The notes beneath the pieces are model-generated. The model had not been told where the DNA came from. It was given only the letters and a program-made list of their open reading frames with translations, and searched no databases. Positions 31,879 through 62,486 of a DNA stretch of 64,000 bases are shown one piece after another. Source of the DNA: Arthrobacter terrae (GTDB lineage Bacteria; Actinomycetota; Actinomycetes; Actinomycetales; Micrococcaceae); contig NZ_JADNYM010000004.1 in the NCBI RefSeq assembly GCF_015708085.1, positions 1-64,000 on the forward strand. The letters run 5' to 3'. Position 1 is the stretch's first letter. Each line of letters opens with the position of its first letter. The position numbers were made by a program, and so were the translations under genes.

Positions 31879-32170
31879 GTCTCACGGCATTTTGAGGTGT
31901 GCTGCTGAAGCACCGGGGACCCTTTGCCGCGTTGCACAGGTGGGTGTCTCGTCTTGGGCGTGCGGTGGGAGTCTCAGGCGCGGTCGTAAACACCCCTGCG
32001 GGTACCTGATCAGCAAGCGGAAAGGGGGACAGTCCCTACGTGGGGCGCTGAATTCTCAGCTTTTTTGCTCGATGCCGCCCGCGCACCGGGCAGCCGAGCT
32101 GACCATTTCTGCACGAACTGAGCTGGCCGCTCGTCGGTGCTGCGTTGCAATCTACTCAACGACCGAGGCC

Positions 32171-32184
32171 GTTTCACGTGAAAC
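32171..32184. other. parS site
   Basis: Perfect GTTTCACGTGAAAC palindrome, the core of the ParB/Spo0J centromere site conserved across bacteria. Confidence 0.95.
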
Positions 32185-32693
32185 ACGAAAATCGGGTCAG
32201 TCTGCCGGATCGAACCACACAGCGGCTGACGGTGGCCGTCTCCCTACGCGGTTCCCCACGGTCCATCGGACAGGAGCAAGTGAGGCCAGGAAATCGCTAC
32301 GCCAGCTATCCCCTCTGGATTGTTATGTCAGGTCTTGAGCGTGGTTGAAAACATCGGACCGTCCGGACGGAGCTGCTACTGCGTTTTCGTGTATTGCACT
32401 TTAGTAACAACAGTTCTTGGTTACCTGTTCCCCGGCGCAGCACGTGTGGCCGCGACGGACTTTGAAGTAAGCACCACCCCAACGGAGAACCTCTGTTCGC
32501 GCCATCTCTTTTGGACCGGAGCAGGGAGTGGAGTGAGGTGGGCCCTATACCGGTTTCAGGTTACCTAGCTTCACCTGCCACCACACATGATGCCGTCCAG
32601 AAAGACACAGCAGCCACCACCGCGATTTTGCCGTTTCTTTGGCGTAAAGCGGCGAACCTGTAACGATCCGTTTGCCGACCTGGGAGTAAGCGT

Positions 32694-32707
32694 GTTTCAC
32701 GTGAAAC
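32694..32707. other. parS site
   Basis: Perfect GTTTCACGTGAAAC palindrome, 523 bp from the previous site, in gene-free DNA left of the insertion sequence. Confidence 0.95.
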
Positions 32708-33629
32708 TCTCCTGCAAGGCAGTTTCCGGCCGGAAAATACATCGCGCTGTCCATAGACTACTGGGCCAAGTGCGAAGACCGTGACTATCCGGAGCGGGCA
32801 ACCGACTTATGATCGGACGTCGCCGATCGCGCCAGCATCCGTCCAGTCGCGTGGACGGGAAGCAGTACCGCGCCGTGTAGGAGAGAAACAGTACCGCAAC
32901 CGCTATGGAGAGCCCGCCTCAGACGCACATAGAGCGACAGGCACGCGCATAGTTCAAGGCCGGCGCATGAGGTCGGTTACCCACGCATCCAGCGCTAATC
33001 GGATCCTGCGATTTCTTGCCCAGCTAACCTAACAGTCGAATAAGCCCGCCTTCGTTGCACCGGCCAAGGGCTCGCTTGGATGGCTCTCCGCGACATTCGA
33101 AGGACCCACACAACCCCGTCCGGCATTTGCCCATTAGGGCTGCCCATCCGTCGATCCCATCTTCAAAGCGTCCGGGGCAGCCGCCCAGGCGTCCTGATTC
33201 CCCATCAAATCCTATAGTCCCGAGGGGCTACGCACCGTCAACGTGAGAGTGAACATTCTGCATGTATGGACCAGCTGCATGATTTGGGGTGAGCATACAT
33301 TGGCGGGCCTCCGCAGGAACGCGATGACATGTAGTTCGCGCGAATTTGGCTTCCAAAGGCGACCGCGTAGATAGGTAGATTGCAGCTATACAAACCTTAG
33401 GATCAATCCTGACCAACCCTAAGGGCTGGAACCGCCATCAAATGGACACGACACAGACTGGACCTGCCACGCATGGTGGAAGCTCCGGTACCTGGTTTGT
33501 GTCTAACCAAGTCCAACTACCGACGATTTTTGAGTGCCTCTAGTATCCATCGGAGCTGCTGGCGCACCACCAGTTTGGTCTGCCGCGGCAAGCGGGAAAA
33601 CATGAACCCTGTAGATGGACAGGAATTTC

Positions 33630-33653
33630 GGCTCTTCTGACCTATCCGTGGGT
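33630..33653. repeat. Left terminal inverted repeat of the ISL3 element
   Basis: Begins GGCTCTTCTGAC and matches the reverse complement of 35044-35067 at 23 of 24 bases. Confidence 0.93.
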
Positions 33654-33742
33654 GTGATCCGCGCGCCTTAACGCCCACACGCCGCTTTCTGCCTAGGATT
33701 TTTGACTGTCAAAGGTACAAAAATTCAAGGACTGAAAACGAC

Positions 33743-35044
33743 GTGCAGAATTCAAGCATATGGGCACCCCTGCTGGGTGTCGAAAAAACGACCGTCAGCC
33801 ATGTGGAGACCTGCCGGGAAACCGGGGTGCTGCTGGCCCGGGTGAGGGCGCACAAGTCCATGCGGAACCGGTGCGGGATCTGTTCGCGCCGATCTCCCCG
33901 ATACGACCGTGGCGATGGTCCCCGACGGTGGCGCACCTTGGATCATGGCACCACGGAAACCTACCTCGTGGCGGAAGCCCCGCGCGTGCGCTGCCCCGAG
34001 CACGGGGTGATTGTTGCCGCCGTTCCCTGGGCCCGCCACCAGGCCGGGCATACCAGAATCTTTGACCAGCAGGTCGCGTGGCTGGCGACCAAATGTTCCA
34101 AGAGCGCGGCGACCGAATTGATGCGTATCGCCTGGCGCACCGTGGGCTCGATCATCGATCGCGTCTGGAAGGACACCACCAAGACCTTCGACCCGTTCGC
34201 GAACCTGTTGCGCATCGGCATTGACGAGATCTCCTACAAGCGCGGACACAAGTATTTGACCGTCGTCGTCGACCATGACACCGGCTGGCTGGTGTGGGCC
34301 GCCCCGGGCCGTGACAAGGCCACGCTGAGGAAGTTCTTTGACGCCCTTGGCGAAGAACGAAGCGCGCACATCACGCATGTTTCCGCCGATGCCGCCGCGT
34401 GGATCTCCACCGTCGTGGCCGAGAAATGTCCCAACGCCGTCCGGGTCGCCGACCCGTTCCATGTGGTCATGTGGGCCACCGATGCCTTGGATGATGAACG
34501 CCGCGCCGCGTGGAACCGGGCACGGAAAGCAGCCAAGGAAAACGAGCCGCCCCGTGGCCGTGGACGCCCGCCCAAGGACGCCCCCGCCCGGCCCGACAGC
34601 GAGCGGGCCGTCAAGCTGAAGAACTCCCGCTTCGCGCTCTGGAAAAACCCCGAGGACCTCACCGACAAGCAGCAGGTGAAGCTGGCCTGGATCGTGCAGA
34701 CCGATCCACGGCTGGGCCGGGCCTACTACCTGAAGGAAGGCCTGCGCACAGTCTTCAAACTGCCACTGGACGAAGCCACCGAAGCACTGGACAAATGGGT
34801 GAACTGGGCCAGACGCTGCAGGATCCCCACATTCGTGAAACTACAAAAAAGCATCGTCAAACACCGCGCCAGCATCCTAGCCTCGATCGAGCACGGACTC
34901 TCCAACGGACGCATAGAATCCATGAACACCAAGATCAGGCTCATCACCAGGATGGCGTTCGGATTCAAATCCCCGGAAGCCTTGATCAGCCTGGCCATGC
35001 TCAGCCTCGGAGGTCACAAGCCAGCACTTCCCGGACGGAAATGA
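33743..35044 (+). CDS. ISL3-family transposase
   Basis: DDE transposase of 433 residues. The N-terminal zinc-binding part has CGICSRR and VRCPEHG (Cys/His set of zf-ISL3). The DDE core has Asp in IGIDEISYKRGHKYLTVVVDHDT, Asp in ADPFHVVMW, and Glu in GRIESMNTKIRLITRMAFGF. The reading frame is intact with no frameshift. The start is GTG at 33743 with AAGGA upstream. The stop's last base is the first base of the right inverted repeat. Codon use resembles the host, so a donor cannot be inferred. Confidence 0.95.
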   Translation: MQNSSIWAPLLGVEKTTVSHVETCRETGVLLARVRAHKSMRNRCGICSRRSPRYDRGDGPRRWRTLDHGTTETYLVAEAPRVRCPEHGVIVAAVPWARHQAGHTRIFDQQVAWLATKCSKSAATELMRIAWRTVGSIIDRVWKDTTKTFDPFANLLRIGIDEISYKRGHKYLTVVVDHDTGWLVWAAPGRDKATLRKFFDALGEERSAHITHVSADAAAWISTVVAEKCPNAVRVADPFHVVMWATDALDDERRAAWNRARKAAKENEPPRGRGRPPKDAPARPDSERAVKLKNSRFALWKNPEDLTDKQQVKLAWIVQTDPRLGRAYYLKEGLRTVFKLPLDEATEALDKWVNWARRCRIPTFVKLQKSIVKHRASILASIEHGLSNGRIESMNTKIRLITRMAFGFKSPEALISLAMLSLGGHKPALPGRK

Positions 35045-35067
35045 CCCACGGATACGTCAGAAGAGCC
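35044..35067. repeat. Right terminal inverted repeat of the ISL3 element
   Basis: Inverted copy of the left end, one mismatch in 24 bases; its outer boundary abuts the GGAATTTC duplication. Confidence 0.93.
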
Positions 35068-35138
35068 GGAATTTCCTGGATATTCTTGCAGGCGCAACAC
35101 CTACGTAACCGCACGTTGAGTCTTCACTTTCAGCATCT

Positions 35139-35152
35139 GTTTCACGTGAAAC
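35139..35152. other. parS site
   Basis: Perfect GTTTCACGTGAAAC palindrome, 64 bp outside the right-hand target duplication of the insertion sequence. Confidence 0.95.
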
Positions 35153-35338
35153 CAAAATGAAGTCGTCTTTGGAAGGCGGAACCGCTCCAGCAATTACGCA
35201 TGATCTTCTTATAGGGCATACTCTTACACTACTTTCAGTACCACTTCCGTCCAGACCCGGGCATCGCACCGCCCCGAATACGTGGGATTCGAGCAGTTCA
35301 GCGGTATAACGATGGCGTTAGGAGCAGCATTTGAAAGT

Positions 35339-35352
35339 GTTTCACGTGAAAC
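35339..35352. other. parS site
   Basis: Perfect GTTTCACGTGAAAC palindrome in gene-free DNA, 200 bp from the previous site. Confidence 0.95.
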
Positions 35353-35551
35353 CATCCGGACAATGGTCAGGGAGAATGTGAGGCCAGCGGCCGCGACGTG
35401 CGCTGGTCAGGCTCGAGCGGCCCAGCATAACTATCATGTTGGGTGGACGAGAACCATCAACCCGACAGGGTACACGCGGCAATCCGCGGGAGTACGAAGC
35501 GTCATTGTAAAACTAAAATTGGGTGCCACTAAACGACGATCAGATTCGCAT

Positions 35552-35605
35552 GTTTCACGTGAAACGATTGTGATTCACTTGAAACGACTGTGATTCAAGT
35601 GAAAC
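35552..35605. repeat. parS site followed by two degenerate copies at 20-bp spacing
   Basis: 35552-35565 is a perfect GTTTCACGTGAAAC. It is followed at exactly 20-bp steps by GATTCACTTGAAAC (35572-35585) and GATTCAAGTGAAAC (35592-35605), each with two differences. The spacers are also similar, so this is a tandemly repeated 20-bp unit, two helical turns apart. Whether ParB binds the degenerate copies is unknown. Confidence 0.9.
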
Positions 35606-35641
35606 GATTGTCCTGCGGGCTCTACAGGCCATCAATCGTGC

Positions 35642-35947
35642 TCATGAAATCCAAAACCGCACACTTGCCATGAAGCCGAAAAGGCGGCAAATTAGTTGAA
35701 TTGCCGTTGCGCCGTAAAAAGGCATAGCCGGGCAGTCCTCGAACTCCTCCCAACGGACAGGAACTCCGGCGACATCAGTATGAAACCGCAGATCCACGTC
35801 GCCTGGAGTCAGGCAGAGGGTCCCTAAACACCCTAAAAATCCGCGGTACGCTTTTGGGCCATTACAGGACCCACAGCGGCCCGGGGCGCGCATTACCGTG
35901 CCACGCATTACCGCGGCGCGCATTACCGTCGCGCCCCTGCGACCCAC
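35642..35947 (-). CDS. Possible small hypothetical protein downstream of parB
   Basis: An open frame of 101 codons begins 13 bp after the parB stop on the same strand. Its first 20 codons are a three-unit 15-bp tandem repeat (see 35889-35935). The rest reads GDVDLRFHTDVAGVPVRWEEFEDCPAMPFYGATAIQL, which looks protein-like, but I recognise no family. With no clear ribosome-binding site, it could equally be non-coding. The first start lies within the repeat, so other ATG codons there are possible. Confidence 0.3.
   Translation of the reverse strand: MGRRGATVMRAAVMRGTVMRAPGRCGSCNGPKAYRGFLGCLGTLCLTPGDVDLRFHTDVAGVPVRWEEFEDCPAMPFYGATAIQLICRLFGFMASVRFWIS
35889..35935. repeat. Three 15-bp tandem repeats just past parB
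   Basis: CATTACCG recurs at 35891, 35906 and 35921, exactly 15 bp apart, inside GC-rich units. It lies between the parB stop and the possible small gene start. Confidence 0.85.
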
Positions 35948-35959
35948 GCTACGCCGTCG

Positions 35960-36973
35960 TTAACTACTTGCCCCCGGAGTGAGAACATCCATGATCCGGT
36001 TTAAATCTTCGACGGATGCGAATTCAATACTGACCTTGCCCTTGCGCGCTCCGAGGGAGATCTTGACATTTGTATCCAGCTTGTCCGACAGCGAGGTCGC
36101 GAGGTAGTCCAGTCGTTCGTGCCTTGCGTTTGCTTTAGGCGCTGAGCCCTTGCTGTTCGCATCCGGGGCCTGATAGAGCGAGACCGCCTCCTCTGTAGCC
36201 CGGACAGACATCCCCTCAGCAATAATCCGCTGCGCAAGTCTCTCCATGGCCAGGCTATCCGGAAGGGCCAGCAACGCCCGGGCGTGCCCGGCGGACAGCA
36301 CTCCTGCGGCAACACGGCGCTGCACCAACGCCGGCAGCTTCAGCAATCGCAGCGTATTGGAAACTTGAGGCCGTGAGCGGCCGATTCGATCCGCCAATTC
36401 TTCGTGGGTAGTCCCAAAGTCCTCCAGAAGTTGCTGGTAGGCAGCAGCCTCTTCCAGGGGATTGAGCTGGCTCCGGTGAAGATTCTCCAACAAAGCATCG
36501 CGAAGGAGGTTATCGTCCGTGGTATCCCGAATGATGACAGGAATGGTCATCAGACCAGCCTGCTGAGATGCCCGCCAGCGCCTTTCACCCATGACTAATT
36601 CATAGGACTCCGATCCGCTCTCGCTGGACTTCCTGACAACTATCGGCTGAAGGATTCCAACTTCTCTAACGGAGTGGACAAGTTCATCCATCTCGTCCTG
36701 ATCGAAGTCTGTTCGGGGCTGCTTCCGGTTTGGATGAATAGACAGCACCGCGACCTCGGCAAATCTTGCACCGGGAACCTGAACCAGCTCGGGTCCTTGT
36801 TCCACCCGCGCAGGAGCCGGGCGGGAGACCTTCTTCATGGTCGCTTCCGGAAAAAACAAGTCAACAGGTCGTGGCGTGGCTGTCGCGGGTTCGTCCCCTG
36901 CGTCCTCTGTCTGCGGAGAGTTGGGAATCAGTGCACCCAGACCCCGGCCTAGTCCTCTACGCTTGTCAGTCAA
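35960..36973 (-). CDS. parB: Chromosome-partitioning protein ParB
   Basis: CTP-dependent clamp that loads at parS and spreads along DNA to organise the origin for segregation. Of 337 residues: N-terminal ParA-contact segment ([14 protein letters not shown]), ParB/Srx CTPase domain (about 70-165) with [24 protein letters not shown] and [11 protein letters not shown] parS-binding domain (about 165-265; [26 protein letters not shown]), and a C-terminal dimerisation segment. Six perfect parS sites lie within about 6 kb. It follows parA by 68 bp on the minus strand. Confidence 0.96.
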
Positions 36974-37041
36974 TGGACTAATCCCTCCGATGAAATGGCA
37001 TACAAAAGCACATCACAGTGGTGAAAGTGCTACAGAAAAGT

Positions 37042-38178
37042 CTACCGTTCGGCTATCTCGGCCGCGGCTTCCAAATAAGACAGCGCGCCTGTTGACGATG
37101 GGTCATAGGTCATCACTGTCTGCTGATAGCTCGGGGCCTCGGATATCCGGACCGACCGTGGCACCACAGCCTTCAGTACCTGGTCAGGGAAATGCTCCCT
37201 AACGTCTGCGGCAACCTGAGCCGCAAGGTTGGTACGACCGTCGTACATCGTCAGCAAAATTGTAGAGACCTCCAACTCCGCATTGAGATGCTTTTGGATC
37301 ATCTCGATGTTTTTCAGCAGCTGGCTGAGCCCCTCAAGCGCATAATACTCGCACTGAATGGGGATGAGCACCTCGTTAGCGGCACAAAACGCGTTAACGG
37401 TCAGCAAGCCCAGACTGGGCGGACAATCAATGAAAATGTAGTCCAGGCGCTCTTCGCCGGAGGTTTCCCGATGTTCGGAATAGGTATCCAGTGCGCGTCG
37501 CAGTCTTTGTTCCCGCGCAACCAACGACACCAATTCAATTTCTGCACCAGCCAGATGAATGGTGGCTGGTGCACAGATCAGGTTGGCAATGTCAGGACAA
37601 GGCGCCACAACATCAGCCAGCGCGAAGTCGTTGATCAGCACATCGTAAATGCTGTCAACCTCCGCATGATGTTCTACTCCGAGGGCAGTAGATGCGTTAC
37701 CCTGCGGATCAATATCCACCACGAGGACCTGTAAACCGGCTGCTGCCAGGGCAGCGGCGATGTTCACAGTGGTGGTCGTTTTACCGACACCCCCCTTTTG
37801 GTTAGCTACCGTCATAATTCGGGTCTTTATTGGCTTCGGCAGGGCACGTCCCAGCAACCGCTCCCGGCGTTTCGTCTCACTGATAAGTTGCCGCGCGATT
37901 GGGCTGCCGTCGTCAGAACCAGCTGCGCCGGCTAGTGGCGCCTGGATCATCGTTTCACGTGAAACATCTGCCCCGGCCACCCCATCAACTGATTTAGGTT
38001 GATTTTGGACAGTTCGTCCTGTCCTTGTCGGGCTCGTAACCGATTGCGAGCCGGAGCGAGCTGAACCCAAGGACACAAACGGCGGGATCCGCTGCGAAGG
38101 CGCTTCGCTGCTGGTCACAATGACACTCTCACTTTCATAAGGTAAGCGTTGACCGGTCTCTAGCCTAACTGGGATCAC
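37042..38178 (-). CDS. parA: Chromosome-partitioning ATPase ParA (Soj)
   Basis: ParA-type ATPase that moves ParB-bound origins. The deviant Walker box ANQKGGVGKTTTTVNIAAAL with its signature Lys and VDIDPQGNASTALG, IDCPPSLGLLTVNAF are complete. An N-terminal extension of about 115 residues precedes the fold and is largely disordered; it contains VSRETMI, encoded by a perfect parS site. GTG 38178 begins directly after the rsmG stop; GTG 38118 (VTSSEAPS) with GAAAG upstream is an alternative start. Order rsmG-parA-parB is typical. Confidence 0.95.
   Translation of the reverse strand: MIPVRLETGQRLPYESESVIVTSSEAPSQRIPPFVSLGSARSGSQSVTSPTRTGRTVQNQPKSVDGVAGADVSRETMIQAPLAGAAGSDDGSPIARQLISETKRRERLLGRALPKPIKTRIMTVANQKGGVGKTTTTVNIAAALAAAGLQVLVVDIDPQGNASTALGVEHHAEVDSIYDVLINDFALADVVAPCPDIANLICAPATIHLAGAEIELVSLVAREQRLRRALDTYSEHRETSGEERLDYIFIDCPPSLGLLTVNAFCAANEVLIPIQCEYYALEGLSQLLKNIEMIQKHLNAELEVSTILLTMYDGRTNLAAQVAADVREHFPDQVLKAVVPRSVRISEAPSYQQTVMTYDPSSTGALSYLEAAAEIAER
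37952..37965. other. parS site inside the parA coding sequence
   Basis: Perfect GTTTCACGTGAAAC, which encodes VSRET in the N-terminal extension of ParA. Confidence 0.95.
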
Positions 38179-41912: not shown

Positions 41913-43319
41913 ATGAGCACTGACGAGATCAATGATGTCGGGAGCTCCTGGCGCCGTGTCGTTCGAGTCCTGGAACAGAACGACCATGTCACTCCACGGC
42001 AACGAGGATTTATTTTTCTCGCCCAGCCGCTGGGCCTGATCGGAACTACACTCCTGGTGGCTGTGCCCAACGAGCTCACCCGCGAAGTACTTCAGACGCA
42101 GCTTAAGAAGGCCCTTGATGATGCTCTGCGCGAGGTCTTCTCCGCCGACATTCTGTGCGCTTTCAGCATCAATACCGATCTGATGCCTGTACAGGAGGAA
42201 GAAGTACCCCAGGAACCGGCCGTCATTCGCCGCGAACCCGAGATGAAACCTGCCCCAACCCTCCCGAGCACTTCGCAGGAATTCGGCCGGCTTAACCCAA
42301 AGTACGTCTTCGACAGCTTCGTCATCGGCCAATCAAATCGCTTCGCCCACGCTGCCGCCGTCGCTGTCGCCGAGGCACCAGCTAAGGCATACAACCCGCT
42401 GTTCATCTATGGGGATTCCGGTTTGGGAAAAACACACCTTCTGCATGCCATCGGTCACTATGCACGGCGCCTCTACACGGGAATCCGTGTTCGGTATGTC
42501 AACTCGGAGGAGTTCACCAATGACTTCATCAACTCGATCCGGGATGATGAGGGCGCCAGCTTTAAACAGCTGTACCGCAACGTGGACATCCTTCTCATCG
42601 ACGACATCCAGTTTCTTGCAAACAAGGATGCCACCCAGGAAGAGTTCTTCCACACATTCAACGCCCTGCACAACCACAACAAGCAGGTCGTTATAACTTC
42701 AGACCTGCCACCCAAGCGGCTTTCGGGCTTTGAAGAACGAATGCGCTCCCGCTTCGAATGGGGCCTCCTAACAGACGTCCAACCGCCCGAGTTGGAAACA
42801 CGGATAGCAATTTTACGCAAGAAGGCCATCGGTGAAGGGCTATCCGCTCCGGATGATGCCCTCGAATACATTGCCTCAAAAATTTCCACGAATATCCGTG
42901 AACTCGAAGGTGCACTCATCCGCGTGACCGCCTTCGCCAGTCTGAACCGCCAGCCGGTGGATGTTGCTCTGGCAGAAATCGTGCTCAAGGATCTCATCAC
43001 AGACGAGGGTGCACAGGAAATTACCGCCACCGCGATCCTGGGACAAACGGCTGCCTATTTCAATTTGTCTCTGGAGGAGCTCTGCAGCAAATCCCGAACA
43101 CGCACTTTGGTCACGGCACGGCAGATTGCCATGTACCTGTGCCGCGAATTGACCGACATGTCCCTTCCCAAAATCGGGCAGGAACTCGGCGGCCGGGACC
43201 ACACCACCGTCATCCACGCGGACAGGAAAATCCGTGAACTCATGGCGGAGCGTCGCGCGATCTATAACCAGGTCACCGAGCTGACTAACAGGATCAAACA
43301 ACAACAGCGTGAGGGATGA
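41913..43319 (+). CDS. dnaA: Chromosomal replication initiator DnaA
   Basis: AAA+ initiator that binds DnaA boxes and opens oriC. Residues 1-85 domain I, a variable linker, then AAA+ domain with GDSGLGKTHLLHAIG, LLIDDIQFLANKDATQEEFFHTFN, sensor motifs, and the C-terminal box-binding domain with SLEELCSKSRTRTLVTARQIAMYLCRELTDMSLPKIGQELGGRDHTTVIHADRKI. The 468-residue length is on the short side because linker domain II is reduced. Start ATG 41913 with GCTGAAGA upstream. Confidence 0.98.
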   Translation: MSTDEINDVGSSWRRVVRVLEQNDHVTPRQRGFIFLAQPLGLIGTTLLVAVPNELTREVLQTQLKKALDDALREVFSADILCAFSINTDLMPVQEEEVPQEPAVIRREPEMKPAPTLPSTSQEFGRLNPKYVFDSFVIGQSNRFAHAAAVAVAEAPAKAYNPLFIYGDSGLGKTHLLHAIGHYARRLYTGIRVRYVNSEEFTNDFINSIRDDEGASFKQLYRNVDILLIDDIQFLANKDATQEEFFHTFNALHNHNKQVVITSDLPPKRLSGFEERMRSRFEWGLLTDVQPPELETRIAILRKKAIGEGLSAPDDALEYIASKISTNIRELEGALIRVTAFASLNRQPVDVALAEIVLKDLITDEGAQEITATAILGQTAAYFNLSLEELCSKSRTRTLVTARQIAMYLCRELTDMSLPKIGQELGGRDHTTVIHADRKIRELMAERRAIYNQVTELTNRIKQQQREG

Positions 43320-50197: not shown

Positions 50198-52882
50198 ATG
50201 AGTGACGACGAAACCCCCGAGGTTCCTGTGGGCGCGGACGAAATCATTGAAGGAGCCGTCCTGACGGACCGGGTGGAGCAGGTGGACCTGCAGACCGAGA
50301 TGCAGCGCTCCTACCTGGATTACGCCATGGCGGTCATTGTCGGCCGGGCCCTGCCCGATGTTCGGGATGGACTGAAGCCGGTGCACCGGCGGGTCATCTA
50401 CGCCATGTTCGACGGCGGCTACCGGCCCGAACGCTCGTTCAACAAGTGCGCCCGCGTGGTTGGCGAGGTGATGGGTCAGTACCATCCGCACGGTGACATG
50501 TCCATCTATGATGCACTGGTCCGGTTGATCCAGGATTGGACGATGCGGTACCCGCTGGCTCTTGGCCAGGGGAACTTTGGCTCGCCGGGCAACGACGGCG
50601 CCGCCGCACCACGGTACACGGAGACCAAGATGGCTCCGCTCGCGATGGAAATGGTCCGTGACATCGACGAGGAAACCGTCGATTTCCAGGATAATTATGA
50701 CGGCAAGAACCAGGAGCCGATGATTCTGCCGGCCCGGTTCCCGAACCTGCTGGTCAATGGGTCCTCCGGCATCGCCGTCGGTATGGCCACTAATATTCCG
50801 CCGCATAATCTGCGGGAAGTTGCCGACGGAGTGCAGTGGTATCTGGCCAATCCGGGTGCAAGCCGGGAAGAGCTGCTTGAAGCGTTGATCCTCCGGATCA
50901 AGGGGCCGGACTTTCCTACCGGAGCCCAGATTCTGGGCCATCAGGGCATCGAAGATGCCTACCGGACCGGGCGCGGCTCCATCACCATGCGCGCCGTCGT
51001 CAATGTCGAGGAGATCCAGGGCCGGACCTGCCTGGTCGTTACCGAGCTGCCGTTCCAGGCAAACCCGGATAATCTGGCGATTAAGATCGCTGAGCTCGTC
51101 AAGGACGGCAAGATATCGGGCATTGCCGATCTTCGGGATGAAACCTCCGGACGCACCGGACAGCGCCTCGTCGTCGTGCTTAAGCGCGACGCCGTCGCCA
51201 AGGTTGTGCTCAATAACCTGTATAAGCACACCCAGCTGCAGGATAACTTCGGTGCCAATATGCTCGCCATTGTCGACGGCGTGCCGCGCACGCTGAGTCT
51301 GGACGCGTTCATCAGGCATTGGGTGACCCACCAAATGGACGTCATTGCAAGGCGCACCCGCTACCGGTTGCGCAAGGCAGAGGAAGCAGCGCACATTTTA
51401 CGCGGCTATCTGAAGGCCCTTGACGCTCTCGACGAAGTCATAGCCCTGATCCGCCGTTCGCAGACCGTCGAGGACGCACGTAACGGACTAATGGGCCTGC
51501 TTGAGATCGATGAAGTTCAGGCGCAGGCCATCCTCAACATGCAGTTGCGCAGACTGGCTGCCCTGGAACGGCAGAAGATCCAGGAGGATCACGACAAGCT
51601 CGAGGCTGAGATTGTTGAATATAACCGCATCCTCGCCTCCGAGGATGTACAGCGCGGCATTGTCAGCACCGAACTGCAGGACATTGCGGACAAGTACGGC
51701 GATGACCGCCGCACGCACATCATGCTCGGTTATGACCCGAATATGAGCATGGAAGACCTCATCCCCGAGGAAGAGATGGTGGTGACGATCACCCACGGCG
51801 GGTATGTCAAGCGCACGCGCAGCGATAACTACCGGTCCCAGCATCGCGGCGGCAAGGGTATCAAGGGTGCTCAACTGCGTGGCGACGATGTAGTGGAGCA
51901 TTTCTTCGTCACAACCACACACCACTGGCTGCTGTTTTTCACCAACCTTGGGCGTGTGTATCGTGCCAAGGCCTACGAACTCGTAGAGGCAGGACGCGAT
52001 GCCAAGGGCCAGCACGTAGCGAATCTCCTGGCCTTCCAGCCGGATGAAACGATTGCCCAGGTTTTGGATCTTCGTGACTACCAGCAGTCACCGTATCTGG
52101 TGCTGGCCACCAAAGCCGGTCTGGTGAAGAAGACCCGGCTGGAGGATTATGACACCAACCGCTCCGCCGGAGTCATCGCGATCAACCTGCGCGATGGGGA
52201 TGAGCTGGTGTCCGCCCAGCTGGTATCTGAAACCGATGATCTTCAGCTTGTTTCACGCAAGGGGCAGTCCATCCGTTTTACAGCCACCGACGAGGCCTTA
52301 CGGCCGATGGGGAGGGCGACCTCGGGTGTGACGGGGATGAAGTTCCGCGACAGCGATGAGCTGCTGGCAGCGAACGTAGTGACTGAGGATTCGTTTGTCT
52401 TCATCGTGACCGAAGGCGGCTATGCCAAACGCACGGCCGTCAGTGAGTACCGGCTACAGGGCCGGGGCGGACTGGGAATTAAGGTTGCCAAACTGGCGGA
52501 GGACCGCGGGGATCTGGTGGGGGCTTTGATCGTCCAGGAGGACGATGAGGTACTGGTCGTGATGAGCGGCGGAAAAGTAGTCCGTTCCAACGTCAGTGAA
52601 GTGCCGGCTAAAGGCCGGGATACCATGGGCGTGGTCTTCGCTAAGCCGGACAAGAATGATCGCATCATTGAAGTGGCGCGCAACAGTGAGCGCGGCCTCG
52701 AAGCCGAGGAGCTGGAAGAGGATCTGCAGGCAGGGTCCGATGGTGCACTGACGGTCGACGGCGGTCCGGAAACTGCTGCCGACGGTGCAGCAGACGTTGG
52801 GGAGAGTGCACAAAGCCGTGATCATCACACGGATGAAGTACCGTTAACTGACGATAACGCTAGCAGTGGAGGTACCGATTGA
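50198..52882 (+). CDS. gyrA: DNA gyrase subunit A
   Basis: Cleavage-rejoining subunit of gyrase. The 894-residue protein has the winged-helix cleavage domain with catalytic Tyr140 (APRYTETKM), GyrA-box QHRGGKGI, and C-terminal beta-pinwheel repeats. The last 60 residues are acidic and low complexity. In the quinolone-resistance segment [10 protein letters not shown], Met101 stands where E. coli has Ser83; Asp105 (E. coli Asp87) is kept. Start ATG 50198. Confidence 0.98.
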
Positions 52883-56708: not shown

Positions 56709-56736
56709 CTCCCACGACCGGATGAAGTCGTGGGAG
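56709..56736. terminator. Hairpin between ppiA-like and rhomboid genes
   Basis: 10-bp perfect stem (56709-56718 with 56727-56736), 8-base loop. No T-run on either strand, so it may be a weak terminator or an attenuating structure before the rhomboid start at 56752. Confidence 0.5.
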
Positions 56737-56751
56737 GCCAGGAATGAAGAG

Positions 56752-57621
56752 ATGACGTACCCAATCCCGGCGGCCGGCACTTCGGCGGCTCCCTTTTGTC
56801 CTCGGCATCCTGACCGCGTTTCGTACGTGCTTTGTCAGCGGTGCGGGCGTCCGGTGTGCCCGCAATGTCAGCGCAGTGCCGCCGTCGGGGTTCAGTGCGT
56901 TGACTGTGTCCAGGTGGCCGCGCGCACGGCGCCCGTTAACCGCACCGTCTACGGCGGGAAGGTCCGCCCAGGCCGGCCGCTGGCCACTTACGTGATTATT
57001 GCACTGTGCGTATTGGTCTATTTGCTCGAATGGCTGCCCGGACTGAACGTTGAACAATCGTTCTGGTACGCGCCCGTTTATACCCAGACCCAGCCCTGGC
57101 GCATGCTGACCTCGGCCTTTCTGCACTCACAACAGTTTCTGCCGCATATTTTGTTTAATATGTATGCCCTGTGGATTTTGGGCCACGCGCTCGAGCCTGC
57201 GCTGGGGCGCCTGCGATTTGTGGCCCTGTATCTTGTCTCGGCCTTGGCCGGGTCGGTGGGGGTGCTGCTGCTGGCCCCGATTGGCGGACCCGTATTAGGC
57301 GCCTCCGGCGCCATTTTCGGTCTCTTCGGTGCACTATTCGTGATCCAACGCCAACGCGGCGGGGACGTGCGGCAGATCGTCGTCCTGATCATTATTAATG
57401 CAGCCCTGGGGTTTATTGTCCCCGGTATCGCCTGGCAGGCACACTTGGGCGGCCTGATTGTCGGCGGCCTTGCCGCGGCCCTGTTCGCCCACGCGCCCAA
57501 AGGCCCACGGCGGAATCTGATCCAGTTCGGTGGTTTAGGGCTACTGGTGCTGGTGCTCATTGTGCTGACAGTCACCAGAATGAACGCAATCCACAACCTG
57601 ATGATCCAGTACCAGCTCTAA
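56752..57621 (+). CDS. Rhomboid-family intramembrane serine protease
   Basis: A 289-residue membrane protease. The N-terminal 45 residues form a zinc-ribbon-like part (CPRHPDR, CQRCGRPVCPQCQRSAAVGVQCVDC). Six or seven membrane helices follow, with nucleophile Ser in GASGAIFGLFGAL and catalytic His in WQAHLGGLIVGGLAAAL; WR and HxxxN-type HILFNMYALW is present. ATG 56752 preferred over 56722: the earlier one lies inside the hairpin. Substrates unknown. Confidence 0.92.
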   Translation: MTYPIPAAGTSAAPFCPRHPDRVSYVLCQRCGRPVCPQCQRSAAVGVQCVDCVQVAARTAPVNRTVYGGKVRPGRPLATYVIIALCVLVYLLEWLPGLNVEQSFWYAPVYTQTQPWRMLTSAFLHSQQFLPHILFNMYALWILGHALEPALGRLRFVALYLVSALAGSVGVLLLAPIGGPVLGASGAIFGLFGALFVIQRQRGGDVRQIVVLIIINAALGFIVPGIAWQAHLGGLIVGGLAAALFAHAPKGPRRNLIQFGGLGLLVLVLIVLTVTRMNAIHNLMIQYQL

Positions 57622-57641: not shown

Positions 57642-58193
57642 TCAGTTCTGCAGGCGGTGGTAAGCGGAACCAAAGTGGACCAGTGGATCCATCCCTTCCA
57701 CCCCGGCCATGAGAGTGCCCATGGACAGCACCTCCCCTACCACCAGGATGTGCGTGGCGGCAGCGTGCACTGCTGTGCTGCGTAATTCAAAGTAGGCCAG
57801 CGATCCGTCGATGACGGCGGCACCGCTTTCGGCGCCGCGACGGAAGGGTATCTGTGCCAGCAGGCCCTCCACGGGAGTCCCCGGACTCGCGAGCCAATCC
57901 GCCGTACTCCGGTGCCTGCTGCCCAGCACGCTCAGAGCCCATGTGCCCGACGCTGTGACCGCTTCCGCGATGCGGGATTCTGCGTACAGGCTCACGAGCA
58001 TGGTCGGTGGATCGTAGGAGACGGAGAGGAACCCGCTCACCGTTGCGGCGTAGTCCCGCCCCCGCAGCAGCGTGCTGATGACAGCGACGCCGGCAGCAAT
58101 GTCAGCGCTGTATCCGCGGTAGAGCGAAACATCGTCCGCGGTCGGTACGGGGCGGGCCAGAACGTGACCGGGTAAGCCGGTGGTATTTTCCAT
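57642..58193 (-). CDS. Flavin reductase family protein
   Basis: A 183-residue FMN-binding split-barrel protein. Segments AAGVAVISTLLRGRDYAATVSGFLSVSYDPPTMLVSLYAESRIAEAVTASGTWALSVLG match flavin reductase / NADH-FMN oxidoreductases; the partner oxygenase is not nearby. It is convergent with the rhomboid gene (20-bp gap) and reads away from the DnaA-box cluster at 58.2 kb. Confidence 0.88.
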   Translation of the reverse strand: MENTTGLPGHVLARPVPTADDVSLYRGYSADIAAGVAVISTLLRGRDYAATVSGFLSVSYDPPTMLVSLYAESRIAEAVTASGTWALSVLGSRHRSTADWLASPGTPVEGLLAQIPFRRGAESGAAVIDGSLAYFELRSTAVHAAATHILVVGEVLSMGTLMAGVEGMDPLVHFGSAYHRLQN

Positions 58194-58222
58194 AACCTGA
58201 TCCTGTCATGTCCCCGCGAAAG

Positions 58223-58454
58223 TTATCCACAGGGCTGTCCACAGCTGGGTACAAGTTACACGCGTGTAGTTCGAATCCCGGGATCGCATGGGTTATCCAC
58301 TTATCCACAACGATATCCACAATGGGTATAACTTACACACATGTGATTCACAGCTGTGGAGGGCGCCTTGGGCCGGACCAACGCAGAATTTCCCACCCGG
58401 CGTGGCGGAACTTGTCCACCGCTGTGGATAAGCATGTCAACATGCTGGGGATAA
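58223..58454. other. DnaA-box cluster outside oriC
   Basis: Perfect boxes at 58223-58231, 58301-58309 and 58423-58431 (reverse). One-mismatch boxes at 58293-58301, 58313-58321 and 58446-58454 (reverse). Looser ones at 58235 and 58412. The density equals that around dnaA. A 12-bp palindrome TACACGCGTGTA lies at 58257-58268. Titration or initiation control is inferred from similar clusters in other bacteria. Confidence 0.8.
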
Positions 58455-58617
58455 TGCCTCGGTAACGGAGTATTCGAAAACCGCAGGTCTTTGGCAGCGT
58501 GCTGTGCATAACCCGGATTTCTGCAGCTCTTCCCTGTCAAAGGAGGACCAGTCCGGCAAAAATACCTGGAGCACCTTGCTTCGCTCAGTTGGTCGGCCTG
58601 CCTTGCGTGCGAGCGTA

Positions 58618-58727
58618 GTGGCGTGCGCAGTCCCGTCGTGCGCCGTGCGCCGTGTGGCGTGCGCAGTCCCGTCGTGCGCCGTGGGTCACCTGCCGTCGGT
58701 CGTCTGCCGTCTGCCGTCTGCCGTCAG
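58618..58727. repeat. GC-rich direct repeats
   Basis: A 30-bp unit occurs at 58618-58647 and 58654-58683 (36-bp step), followed by short CTGCCGT-type units in tandem (about 58701-58727). No coding or structural role is evident. Confidence 0.85.
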
Positions 58728-58860
58728 GTAAGTCAGTGCGGGTGCTTTCGCTCAGCAGCAGCGGCGGACAGCAGGTGCCCACTGTTGCTGAGAGTCTGCG
58801 GTCCATAGAATTGGAATTCGAAGACCAAGACAATTCAAGATACGCGGGAAAGGCAAAACG

Positions 58861-59304
58861 ATGACCGAGAACAGCAGGATTGAAAAACCGGAGGTTCCCT
58901 CTGTTGGCCCTGCCACTGCCGGGCGTGGGGATGACGTCCAAGACCGTGGGGAGGTGCTGCCCGACAGTGCTGCAGGCCAGGAGCGCGGGGAGGGGCCAGC
59001 GGAGGATGATGAGGACAGGGGCCGCTACGTCGAGGGCTCCTACGGCAAGGCAGGCCGCGAGGCCGGACATCGCCGCGGAGCGGGCGAGGGCCAATATATA
59101 GAAGGTGAATATGGGAAGGCCGGGAGTGAAAGCGCGCGGAAAACCGGGCAGGGCGAAGAAACGCAGACAGGCCGGTTTACCGAAGCCGACTACGGCAGTG
59201 CCGGAAACGTAGCGCCGCGCAGCGGTGAACACGGCGCCGGGCAATATGCCAAGGGTGACTACGGCAGCGGTGGAACGGTCAAGCCCAAGGACAAGGAGAC
59301 CTAG
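58861..59304 (+). CDS. Hypothetical hydrophilic protein with four YG repeats
   Basis: A 147-residue Gly/Glu/Asp-rich protein, no membrane segment or signal peptide. Four copies of a 12-residue motif occur: GRYVEGSYGKAG (54-65), GQYIEGEYGKAG (77-88), GRFTEADYGSAG (104-115), GQYAKGDYGSGG (127-138), spaced 23-27 residues apart. I recognise no family. ATG 58861 with GGAAAGG upstream. Its stop interlocks with the stop of the convergent crgA within CTAG (59301-59304). Likely intrinsically disordered. Confidence 0.7.
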   Translation: MTENSRIEKPEVPSVGPATAGRGDDVQDRGEVLPDSAAGQERGEGPAEDDEDRGRYVEGSYGKAGREAGHRRGAGEGQYIEGEYGKAGSESARKTGQGEETQTGRFTEADYGSAGNVAPRSGEHGAGQYAKGDYGSGGTVKPKDKET

Positions 59305-59561
59305 GACCGCCAGCGTGTCGTCATCAAAAAGCCCACAATCGCAATAACGAATCCAATCAGGATATTTCCGTTTCCCACGCTCGGCAGTGGGAACGCGCCG
59401 CTGCTGATATAGAACGTAATGATCCAGAACAGGCCGATCAGCATCAACCCGAACATGACCGGTTTGTACCAGACCGGATTGGGCCCAGCGGCTTTGGCTT
59501 TGGCACTGTCCTGCTCCTGATTGCTACGACGTGGCTGGCGGCGCGGTTTGGACTCGGGCAC
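59301..59561 (-). CDS. crgA: Cell division protein CrgA
   Basis: Small septation protein that interacts with FtsZ/FtsI and peptidoglycan synthases in actinobacteria. An 86-residue chain with basic N-terminus (PESKPRRQPRRSNQEQ) and two membrane helices (NPVWYKPVMFGLMLIGLFWIITFYISSGAFP, NGNILIGFVIAIVGFLMTTRWR), the family's layout. Its position upstream of pabA/pknB is conserved. Confidence 0.95.
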   Translation of the reverse strand: MPESKPRRQPRRSNQEQDSAKAKAAGPNPVWYKPVMFGLMLIGLFWIITFYISSGAFPLPSVGNGNILIGFVIAIVGFLMTTRWRS

Positions 59562-60509: not shown

Positions 60510-62486
60510 CTAACTTTTAGGTGCCGGGGATGGGCTGCAGTCCGTGGCTTTCTTGGATGCGCAGGCCGACGACGTCGCACGGGGCGTCGGCGTCGCTGTC
60601 TCGGTCGGAGCAGGAGCAGGTGCAGGTGTAGTTGCGGGTGCGGGTGCCTTGGCGATCTCCACCGTGACGGTGGAATACTGGTCAACGCTGGACCCCGCAT
60701 CAGCTGACTGACCGGTAACCCTGCCCGGCGCCACCACGGAATTCTCCTTCTCGACGAAGGATACCTGCAGTGTCCTTGAGGCGCTCTGGATGGCCTGTTG
60801 GGCTTCCTCCCGGCTAAGGCTGATCAGCGACGGCATCGTCACCTTGCCGGTCGAAACCATGAGATCCACTTTCGATCCCGCGGCCACCACCTGGCCCGGT
60901 GATGGACTGGTCGTGACCACCAGGTTGGCACCGACGGTGCCGTCATTGACTTGTTTGGTTTCCCCCGGCACCAGCCCCAGCGCCCGGATCGCATCCCGGG
61001 CGGTAGGTTCGGTGACATTGATCAGGGAGTTGGGGATCTGCACGCTGGCGGGACCATCAGAAATAATCAAGGTGATGGTCGTATTGGGATCGACCGACGC
61101 CCCTGCCGACGGATCCGTGCCTACTGCGAGTCCTTTGGCTACGGCAGGGTCGTAGTGGCGCTGCAGCGAAGGCCGGAGACTATCGTTATAGAGCTCGGCC
61201 ATCGCATCGGTTTCCGGCATCGAGCGGACATCGGGAATGCGGATCTGGACCGCGGCGGGTGGTTTTGCGCTGATCAGGTTATAGGCGAGGACGCCGCCGC
61301 CAGCGAGAAATACGGCCAGCAGAACAAAAAAGGTGATGATCGATGCATGACGGCGCCGGCGGGTAGCGTGGTCCCGCTCCTTCTCTGCGGGCAGCCCCAG
61401 TGGCAGCGCGTTCGGGTCCTCATCGGGGGCAACTCCGGTGGTGAGCGGCCTTCCGGACAGCGCTTTGGCCATGGCACGTGTGGCGGGACCGTCGTCATGG
61501 AGATTTTCCGACTCGGACCGGGAAAGCGCTCCCACGGCGACGGCGACAGTGGACACTGATGGTGGAGTCGGAGTCCGCTGCATGCCATATGCCTCGGTCG
61601 GAGCTTCGTTGGCCGAGTACGGAGCGATAAGCACGCCGCCTTTGGCTGCCCGCAGGGCACGCCTGAAGGCCGCGGCATTCTGGAACCGGTCGGCCCGGTT
61701 TTTTTCCAGGGCGCGCAACACCACACTGTCCAGAGCCGGGCTGACCAGTGAATTGAAGCGGCTGGGTGCCGCCGGCGTTTCCCTGACATGTTGGTAGGCC
61801 ACCGAGACAGGGCTGTCCCCCATAAAGGGAGGCCGTCCGGTAAGCATCTCGTAGAAGAGGCAGGCGGCCGAGTACAGATCGCTGCGCTCATCAACTGTTT
61901 CCCCGCGGGCCTGCTCCGGAGAGAGATACTGAGCGGTGCCGATCACGGCCTGCGTCTGGGTCATGGTGGCGGAAGAATCCGCGATGGCGCGCGCGATCCC
62001 GAAGTCCATCACCTTGATCGCGTTGCCGTCGTCGGTGACCATGACATTGGCCGGCTTGATGTCCCGGTGCACAATGCCCGCACGATGACTGTATTCCAGC
62101 GCGGACAGCACGCCGAGCGTGTAATCAATCGCATGGTCAATGGTCAGTTCCTTGCTCCGGACCAGATCGCGCAGGGTCCGGCCCGAAACGAATTCCATCA
62201 CGATGAACGGCATTCGAGGGCCATCCCCCAGCGGGTCAGTGGAACTGTTATCCCCGGTGTCATATACCGCGACGATCGATGGATGGTTCAGCCCGGCTAC
62301 CGCCTGCGCCTCACGGCGGAACCGTGCCTGCAATTGCGGGTCGCGGGCCAAATCAGCACGCAGCAGCTTCACCGCTACAGTACGTCCGAGCCGGGTATCC
62401 TTGCCGATGTACACGTCAGCCATACCGCCGCGGCCCAGCAGCTCACCCAATTCATACCGTTCATTGAGGACGCGCGGCATATTCAT
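60510..62486 (-). CDS. pknB: Ser/Thr protein kinase with PASTA domains (PknB type)
   Basis: Membrane kinase that senses peptidoglycan fragments or lipid II and controls wall synthesis and division. Kinase domain 11-275: GRGGMADVYIG, Lys40 in TVAVKLL, HRDIKPANVM, VMDFGIA, SPEQARGE. Juxtamembrane region, one helix (about 385-407), then three PASTA domains (about 415-625) and a Pro/Thr/Ala-rich tail. The pknB-first order, with pknA next upstream on the minus strand, is as in mycobacteria. ATG 62486 with AAAGGA upstream. Confidence 0.95.
   Translation of the reverse strand: MNMPRVLNERYELGELLGRGGMADVYIGKDTRLGRTVAVKLLRADLARDPQLQARFRREAQAVAGLNHPSIVAVYDTGDNSSTDPLGDGPRMPFIVMEFVSGRTLRDLVRSKELTIDHAIDYTLGVLSALEYSHRAGIVHRDIKPANVMVTDDGNAIKVMDFGIARAIADSSATMTQTQAVIGTAQYLSPEQARGETVDERSDLYSAACLFYEMLTGRPPFMGDSPVSVAYQHVRETPAAPSRFNSLVSPALDSVVLRALEKNRADRFQNAAAFRRALRAAKGGVLIAPYSANEAPTEAYGMQRTPTPPSVSTVAVAVGALSRSESENLHDDGPATRAMAKALSGRPLTTGVAPDEDPNALPLGLPAEKERDHATRRRRHASIITFFVLLAVFLAGGGVLAYNLISAKPPAAVQIRIPDVRSMPETDAMAELYNDSLRPSLQRHYDPAVAKGLAVGTDPSAGASVDPNTTITLIISDGPASVQIPNSLINVTEPTARDAIRALGLVPGETKQVNDGTVGANLVVTTSPSPGQVVAAGSKVDLMVSTGKVTMPSLISLSREEAQQAIQSASRTLQVSFVEKENSVVAPGRVTGQSADAGSSVDQYSTVTVEIAKAPAPATTPAPAPAPTETATPTPRATSSACASKKATDCSPSPAPKS

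Follow-up and report, generated by a model that had tools for sequence, protein, structure and literature searches.

The locus and its DnaA boxes

The window, by which we mean the whole 64-kb stretch of Arthrobacter terrae DNA that was analysed, contains dnaA and dnaN and, some 15 kb away, a dense group of DnaA boxes between a rhomboid-family gene and crgA. The genes and the parts of the element are given below, with bit scores from a 27-position matrix.

41913-43319: dnaA
from 43758: dnaN
50198-52882: gyrA
56162: ppiA
56722..57621, plus strand: rhomboid-family gene (PF01694), with the element downstream of it in relatives
57642..58193, minus strand: flavin-reductase-like gene (PF01613), between the rhomboid gene and the element
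58223..58454, no strand: whole DnaA-box element, its extent conserved within the genus
58223..58243, plus strand: head-to-tail pair 1, TTATCCACA at 58223 and CTGTCCACA at 58235, 12-bp offset
58253..58273, plus strand: quasi-palindrome copy 1, AAGTTACACGCGTGTAGTTCG, which includes TACACGCGTGTA; 32.2 bits
58293..58321, plus strand: three head-to-tail boxes, TTATCCACT, TTATCCACA and ATATCCACA, at 58293, 58301 and 58313
58323..58331, minus strand: degenerate stretch resembling an inverted DnaA box, TGGGTATAA, located between pair 2 and copy 2 of the palindrome
58330..58350, plus strand: quasi-palindrome copy 2, AACTTACACACATGTGATTCA; 38.5 bits
58412..58431, both strands: inverted pair, TTGTCCACC (plus), gc, TGTGGATAA (minus), 11-bp offset
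58446..58454, minus strand: one-mismatch box TTATCCCCA, at 23 bp from the inverted pair's minus box
58861-59304: orf147, between the cluster and crgA
59301..59561, minus strand: crgA (PF06781), convergent with the rhomboid gene
60510-62486, minus strand: pknB-like kinase

Two half-modules (58223-58273 and 58301-58350) make up the first part of the element, and the inverted pair at 58412/58423 and the box at 58446 come after them; several relatives have two or three modules in tandem. Pair 2 is formed by the boxes at 58301 and 58313, again with a 12-bp offset, and the TTACA of palindrome copy 2 begins 20 bp after the start of the latter. When the window is compared to G098 (L033), a genome of the same genus, 105/113 bases are identical inside the sub-elements and 70/119 between them.

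A preliminary description of this DNA had listed six boxes in the cluster, and a pattern search of the 64-kb window recovered every one of them in its place: three perfect TTATCCACA boxes at 58223(+), 58301(+) and 58423(-), and three with one mismatch at 58293(+), 58313(+) and 58446(-). A seventh one-mismatch box at 58503(-) was absent from that list; only 4/9 of its bases are kept in G098, unlike the other sub-elements. We treated TTGTCCACA as an alternative DnaA-box consensus, and the one-mismatch boxes of this type at 58235 and 58412 are further members of the cluster. Perfect boxes number 6 in the 64-kb window where 0.19 would be expected (6 or more occurred in 0/100 shuffles), and boxes with at most one mismatch number 20 where 6.0 would be. 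The other three perfect boxes lie around dnaA (41731, 43345 and 43513), the number that had been counted there before. The whole assembly (4.43 Mb in 63 contigs) contains 26 perfect boxes, and on its other contigs no two of them are less than 10 kb apart, with distances taken within contigs only. The cluster is unique in the A. terrae genome. The two palindromes previously noticed among the boxes, TACACGCGTGTA and TTACACACATGTG, are both present and are copies of a single motif.

The stretch had also been called gene-free, and from 58193, the start of the flavin reductase, to 58861, the beginning of orf147, it is without recognisable genes. Two short ORFs lie over the cluster and neither has a Pfam match. 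A coding role can be rejected: the spacing of the two box pairs varies in relatives (109, 110, 111, 112 bp and others) in a way that breaks the reading frame, so the cluster is non-coding. With several consensus boxes in a non-coding stretch, at a density above chance, the locus is a DnaA-box cluster outside oriC. A mobile origin of the element was considered too, and no plasmid or phage DNA matched; the single pattern match in IMG/VR (L250) is AT-rich DNA in which no DnaA-box cluster could be seen by eye, and was taken as chance.

The genes next to the element are less constant than its borders. Wherever crgA is linked to the rhomboid gene it forms the right-hand border of the locus. The flavin-reductase-like gene, among family loci with rhomboid and crgA linked, was found only in genus g1 (the window and L033) and in g25, and a match to orf147 likewise only in g1 and g25 among the family loci compared. 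The product of orf147 is a short protein in which repeated Y-x-x-G-x-Y-G-K-A-G-like units can be made out by eye, with no Pfam match. Directly after the element, at 58600-58730, there are short imperfect tandem repeats, also seen by eye.

Conservation of the cluster in the family

Since the loci are related by descent, the counts that follow are not counts of independent events. crgA was found in 196/197 genomes of the family. We collected stretches running from crgA toward dnaA for 80 family genomes, 80 named loci and 40 class loci from other families; the family genomes (80 of the 196 with crgA, among the matches listed) were picked to spread over genera and closed chromosomes, and the class-level sample took 80 of at least 293 genomes, again among the matches listed. 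A set of 163 loci with rhomboid(+) and crgA(-) linked was then used for comparison, which leaves out 38 of 201 oriented loci: two duplicates (L112 = L073 and L158 = L057) and 36 in which rhomboid and crgA are not linked. A strict cluster was defined as at least 3 boxes, at least 2 of them perfect, within 300 bp.

Strict clusters were present in 56 of the 59 family loci that have rhomboid and crgA linked, the window included, and the other three (L044, L079 and L106) pass a relaxed test with 4-7 boxes, one of them perfect. Absence of the cluster from this locus in close relatives had been put forward beforehand as the observation that would speak against it; the outcome was the opposite. Among the named loci 67/72 have a strict cluster. 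The five that do not are L137 (Curtobacterium, which passes the relaxed test), L155 (Naasia), L177 (Rathayibacter), L185 (Subtercola) and L188 (Agromyces); the 4/72 with no cluster all belong to Microbacteriaceae-type genera. One locus, L176, comes from a record titled Vibrio cholerae strain 35D and has an Arthrobacter-like rhomboid-crgA locus with the cluster, and this is probably a mislabelled or contaminated assembly.

Chance clustering was considered as well. No strict cluster was found in 1160 control stretches of the same length, taken from the same loci with dnaN, or else the beginning of the stretch, as one limit and the rhomboid gene as the other, nor in 590 dinucleotide shuffles. Together with the conservation in relatives, and with no supporting point found, this makes chance a vanishingly improbable explanation.

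At the level of genera, a strict cluster occurs in at least one genome for 30/32 family genera, and g22 has a relaxed one. Genus g29 falls outside the test, as its contig ends 60 bp after the rhomboid gene. Some of the genomes in which the two genes are unlinked were followed with 11 stretches round the element and 20 stretches after the rhomboid gene, the latter giving 12 strict clusters, 5 relaxed and 3 with none. Even the relaxed test failed for single genomes in g13 (L309) and g15 (L313) and for three stretches in g27 (L255, L256 and L261); in these three g27 stretches the palindrome is present beside one or two boxes.

A conserved arrangement of box pairs and a palindrome

The spacing of the boxes is conserved as well as their number. 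Same-direction boxes 13 bp apart were found in 103/163 loci and 12 bp apart in 34/163, and in 91/163 a minus box comes 11 bp after a plus box, against a median of 2 loci for any combination of orientation and offset. The quasi-palindrome TTACANNNNTGTARTTC is placed 20 bp on from the head-to-tail pair. In 43 loci in which oriC (dnaA-dnaN) could be compared, different offsets are favoured there: two minus boxes at 12 bp in 28 loci and two plus boxes at 9 bp in 22. The cluster is also the denser of the two. Since the whole rhomboid-crgA interval is longer than oriC, the fair comparison is between the best 500 bp of each, where the median box number is 8 (4 perfect) for the cluster and 5 (2 perfect) for oriC; the number is higher in the cluster in 35 of the 43 loci, equal in 5 and lower in 3.

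The palindrome pattern TTACANNNNTGT is present in the rhomboid-crgA interval of 144/163 loci. There are 267 matches in the 0.37 Mb of these intervals and 11 in 2.04 Mb upstream of them in the same loci, both strands being counted so that a full palindrome scores twice. In 115/178 plus-strand matches the palindrome begins 20 bp beyond the first base of the nearest plus box. From 113 elements we derived the consensus TTATCCACA n TGTTRRTAAC TTACA nnnn TGTARTTC; these elements were chosen for having TTACANNNNTGT with a box at exactly 20 bp on its upstream side, and box, TTACA and TGT are hence fixed by selection; the selection-independent signal is the stretch between box and palindrome, plus the RTTC that follows. 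The former, which corresponds to 58323..58331 of the window, has the consensus TGTTRRTAA by base frequencies in the 113 elements of relatives, and looks like a degenerate inverted DnaA box.

With the 27-position matrix, which was trained on the same locus that it was scored on, 221 matches of at least 13 bits were found in the fetched loci. All except nine are in the rhomboid-to-crgA interval (212); 7 lie on the crgA side where no rhomboid gene was found, and 2 in the dnaA-dnaN region of two f4 loci. In the window's own genome the motif occurs twice, both times inside the cluster, and elsewhere there is one match with three mismatches, a number that the reversed control also gave. The palindrome motif is thus nearly confined to the rhomboid-crgA locus.

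It is unlikely that the palindrome is an extra DnaA box, because it is TTACA and TGTAR that the elements keep in common. A conserved palindrome of this kind implies a dimeric DNA-binding protein as a putative partner of DnaA. We take the motif to resemble BldD-like half-sites (TNACNC...GNGTNA), though its centre is 2 bp long where theirs is 1 bp.

Position and orientation relative to dnaA

A stricter palindrome pattern matched 73/197 family genomes, in 14/32 genera, and its reversed control matched none; many of the 124 unmatched genomes have a cluster with a variant motif. Of the 88 matches, 86 share a contig with dnaA (71 genomes), and all 86 are on the dnaN side of dnaA, at 12.5 to 107.6 kb with a median of 15.4 kb. 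The orientation is the same as that of dnaA in 82/86, and the other 4 all belong to genus g8.

The element stays near dnaA when crgA does not. In 11 genomes compared, the distance between crgA and dnaA on the contig is 21 to 205 kb, and larger in G143, where the two are 2.58 Mb apart by coordinate, or about 0.57 Mb if the 3.16-Mb contig is circular. Each of these 11 genomes has a copy of the element 14-64 kb from dnaA. At least one copy lies downstream of the rhomboid gene in 10/11 of the stretches with relocated crgA; the eleventh (L260) is without rhomboid and without crgA. Some genomes have more than one copy. G002 (g3; L240 and L260) has two further box-plus-palindrome copies, 375 bp apart and away from rhomboid and crgA, that by eye adjoin a superoxide dismutase-like gene, and it also has a relaxed cluster downstream of its rhomboid gene (L318). 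In one g27 genome (L254 and L257) two elements are separated by about 12 kb, and in G026 the distance is about 93 kb.

A narrow range of distances and a mostly fixed orientation (82/86) could be expected of a positioning or segregation site, at which DnaA and a partner would organise the origin-near DNA and leave DnaA activity unchanged. The window has parS-like sites on the opposite side of oriC. The boxes of the element are of the DnaA type, and the palindrome can be rejected as parS, since nothing like TGTTTCACGTGAAACA, which we take to be the parS consensus, matches at the cluster with up to 3 mismatches in a search of the 64-kb window. We consider a positioning site unlikely. The parS-like sites themselves are eight in number, six with one mismatch and two with three, and lie at 32170-37966, left of oriC, around parA/parB-like genes.

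Another possibility is that the boxes form a DnaA-controlled promoter, which would serve crgA, orf147 or the flavin reductase, whose start in the window is 30 bp from the first box. The neighbouring genes differ between genera, though, and the gap between the convergent rhomboid and crgA genes is below 500 bp in 45/163 loci, 27 of which keep at least 3 boxes, at least 2 of them perfect. Given this frequent convergent placement and the changing neighbours, a role as promoter or operator is very unlikely.

GC skew, AT content and the question of a second origin

The preliminary description had allowed for DnaA titration, nucleotide exchange or a second origin element. A second replication origin, or part of a split origin, could account for the cluster being richer in boxes than oriC in 35/43 loci, and a few relatives have similar palindromes with DnaA boxes at oriC or close to it. 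The local GC skew also changes at the element: over 3 kb on its left side it is negative in 54/56 family loci (median -0.030), and over 3 kb on its right side it is positive in 30/37 (median 0.040). In the window a small dip ends at the cluster, with weakly negative values at 55-58 kb and positive ones beyond 58 kb. However, the deepest minimum of the cumulative skew between 30 and 64 kb is at oriC (about 45 kb), and the local dip tracks two genes, ppiA and rhomboid. At third codon positions the coding strand shows negative skew in ppiA (59/59 loci), rhomboid (57/59), gyrA (52/52) and dnaN (48/48). One locus, L259 (G042), has ppiA and rhomboid inverted, and the skew of both genes on the dnaA strand is there positive; the 3 kb left of the element still have -0.034 and the 3 kb right 0.054 despite the inversion, so this test of the skew is not a clean one. 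As the dip mostly follows the genes, it decides little on whether there is an origin here.

The other observations weigh against one. The most AT-rich 30 bp reach 0.67 in 58194-58860 and 0.80 in oriC, and this maximum is higher in oriC than in the element in 28/43 loci. The 12.5-107.6 kb that separate the element from dnaA are also far from the split origins described in the available part of PMC4285127, which extend up to about 2 kb. A second origin is therefore improbable in our judgement. Of the preliminary reading, a real and selected DnaA-box cluster outside oriC stands, as it is conserved in relatives, and a second origin element has become less likely with the cumulative skew minimum and the AT maximum both at oriC.

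Occurrence in other families of the class

Outside the family the cluster is widespread in some lineages and missing in others. In the Streptomyces-like family f22 a strict cluster lies beside crgA in 24/24 fetched loci, 4 of a first set and 20 of a second. It was also found in 5/5 linked loci of f3, in 1/1 and 2/4 of f23, in 1/7 of f4, in 0/1 and 2/6 of f10 and in 0/3 and 2/6 of f20, and against these stand 0/2 and 0/3 in f26 and no cluster in the one or two loci each of f2, f5, f6, f19, f25, f29, f31 and f35. We also searched for a composite, defined as two head-to-tail boxes with the palindrome at 17-23 bp, or a perfect box with TTACANNNNTGT. It occurs at crgA in 13/80 non-f1 loci (f4 3/7, f5 1/2, f10 3/12, f23 4/5, f26 1/5 and f35 1/1) and was not found in the remaining families among these 80, f3, f20 and f22 included. 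Away from the crgA site, 687,574 bp of class loci gave 0 matches. A stricter pattern run over 393 class genomes matched 18 of them in 19 places, 15 of which are at rhomboid/crgA. A variant palindrome, CACACCGGCGTCA, is present in 13/20 f22 loci of the second set, and one other locus of this set has a form of it that differs by one base. As composite and cluster occur in other families in a patchy way, the core of the element is, by these comparisons, older than the family, and it has been reshaped or lost in many lineages.

Discussion

The locus is non-coding, often between convergent genes, close to oriC and rich in boxes, and this is the anatomy of a locus that regulates DnaA. Its position, anatomy, conservation and frequent siting between convergent genes are established, and from them we infer its function. 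The explanation that we hold to be the probable one is an origin-proximal DnaA-binding control element that is neither promoter nor origin, and acts as a datA-like brake with a putative dimeric partner. DnaA would occupy the head-to-tail pairs and the inverted pair, and a second, dimeric protein would bind TTACANNNNTGTAR at a fixed spacing and shape the complex, a role that IHF plays in E. coli datA. Because it is about 15 kb from oriC, the locus would be replicated soon after each initiation. The duplicated element could then bind DnaA or promote the loss of its active form, and in this way an early second initiation would be blocked.

Comparison to known systems is helpful here. E. coli datA, in the portion of PMC5742627 available, is likewise non-coding and has head-to-tail boxes with a site for a second protein, IHF, at a set spacing. 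The A. terrae element differs in that its partner site is a palindrome, in a place comparable to that of the IHF site, in that it also has a conserved inverted pair, and in lying about 15 kb from oriC. E. coli DARS1 and DARS2 are, in the same portion of that review, non-coding and have boxes in opposite directions (PMC5742627). In the A. terrae element the early doubling, the many consensus boxes and the head-to-tail pairs favour, by analogy, a datA-like brake. DARS1 and DARS2 are sited differently from the oriC-adjacent element of A. terrae.

The conserved inverted pair may still leave room for a DARS-like role, in which DnaA-ADP on oppositely oriented boxes would shed its ADP and active DnaA would rise. 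This pair (found in 91/163 loci) recalls the DARS cores, where box I is opposite to boxes II and III according to the accessible text of PMC5742627, and it has to be set against the brake that inverted boxes are as DARS-like as they are datA-like. On the other hand, the commonest feature of the locus is the head-to-tail pair, as in datA, whose essential boxes face the same direction (PMC5742627, available part), and siting next to oriC suits a brake. The available parts of three reviews also call the Streptomyces cluster repressing (PMC10950094, PMC5742627, PMC4585315). We regard a DARS-like activator as a minor possibility. The brake has its own difficulty in the distribution of the element, as f4 has the strict cluster in only 1/7 loci and many other families have a small cluster or none.

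The nearest described parallels are in Gram-positive bacteria. As far as the accessible parts of these sources go, a DnaA-box cluster near oriC in S. coelicolor and DnaA-box clusters in Bacillus subtilis repress untimely initiation (PMC5742627, PMC4585315, PMC10950094), and the B. subtilis clusters would in this respect be like the brake proposed here. The f22 clusters, next to crgA in all 24 loci, are unlike the A. terrae element in being without the composite of head-to-tail pair and palindrome (0/24). The B. subtilis clusters are reportedly those of Okumura et al. 2012, and the S. coelicolor cluster near oriC was reportedly described by Smulczyk-Krawczyszyn et al. 2006 and called H69. If that cluster is H69, we presume that it is very probably the same locus as the rhomboid-crgA cluster. 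Cosmid H69 of S. coelicolor includes SCO3857 (PMC3878966) and CrgA is SCO3854 (PMC4416010), so that, to the extent these partly available sources show, the H69 region and the crgA locus probably overlap.

How actinobacteria prevent double firing of oriC by DnaA is poorly understood, and to our knowledge they are without several of the well-known brakes of E. coli and Bacillus. The preliminary description had mentioned neither the inverted box pair nor the fixed spacing by which the palindromes are part of the element, nor how widely the element is conserved. Within the literature searched, the family and class conservation, the fixed composite anatomy and the near-exclusive partner motif are new here; among the matches listed in open-licence literature, no paper was found that names a DnaA-box locus at crgA/rhomboid. 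A broader proposal, which we put forward only tentatively, is that this is a class-wide locus of the Actinomycetes near oriC, where DnaA and a putative dedicated dimeric TTACANNNNTGTAR-binding protein would together form a two-protein switch for initiation. If true, such a switch would replace the brakes known from other bacteria, and the locus would make an isolated Streptomyces observation a general feature of the class.

A conserved locus near oriC with a near-unique motif is a defined target for further work, and the palindrome could be used as bait for the partner protein. In a few relatives palindromes of the TTACANNNNTGT type, some of them touching a DnaA box, are also seen at oriC or beside it, upstream of dnaA in L058, L063 and L077 and between dnaA and dnaN in L105 and L204, so the putative partner may act at oriC too.
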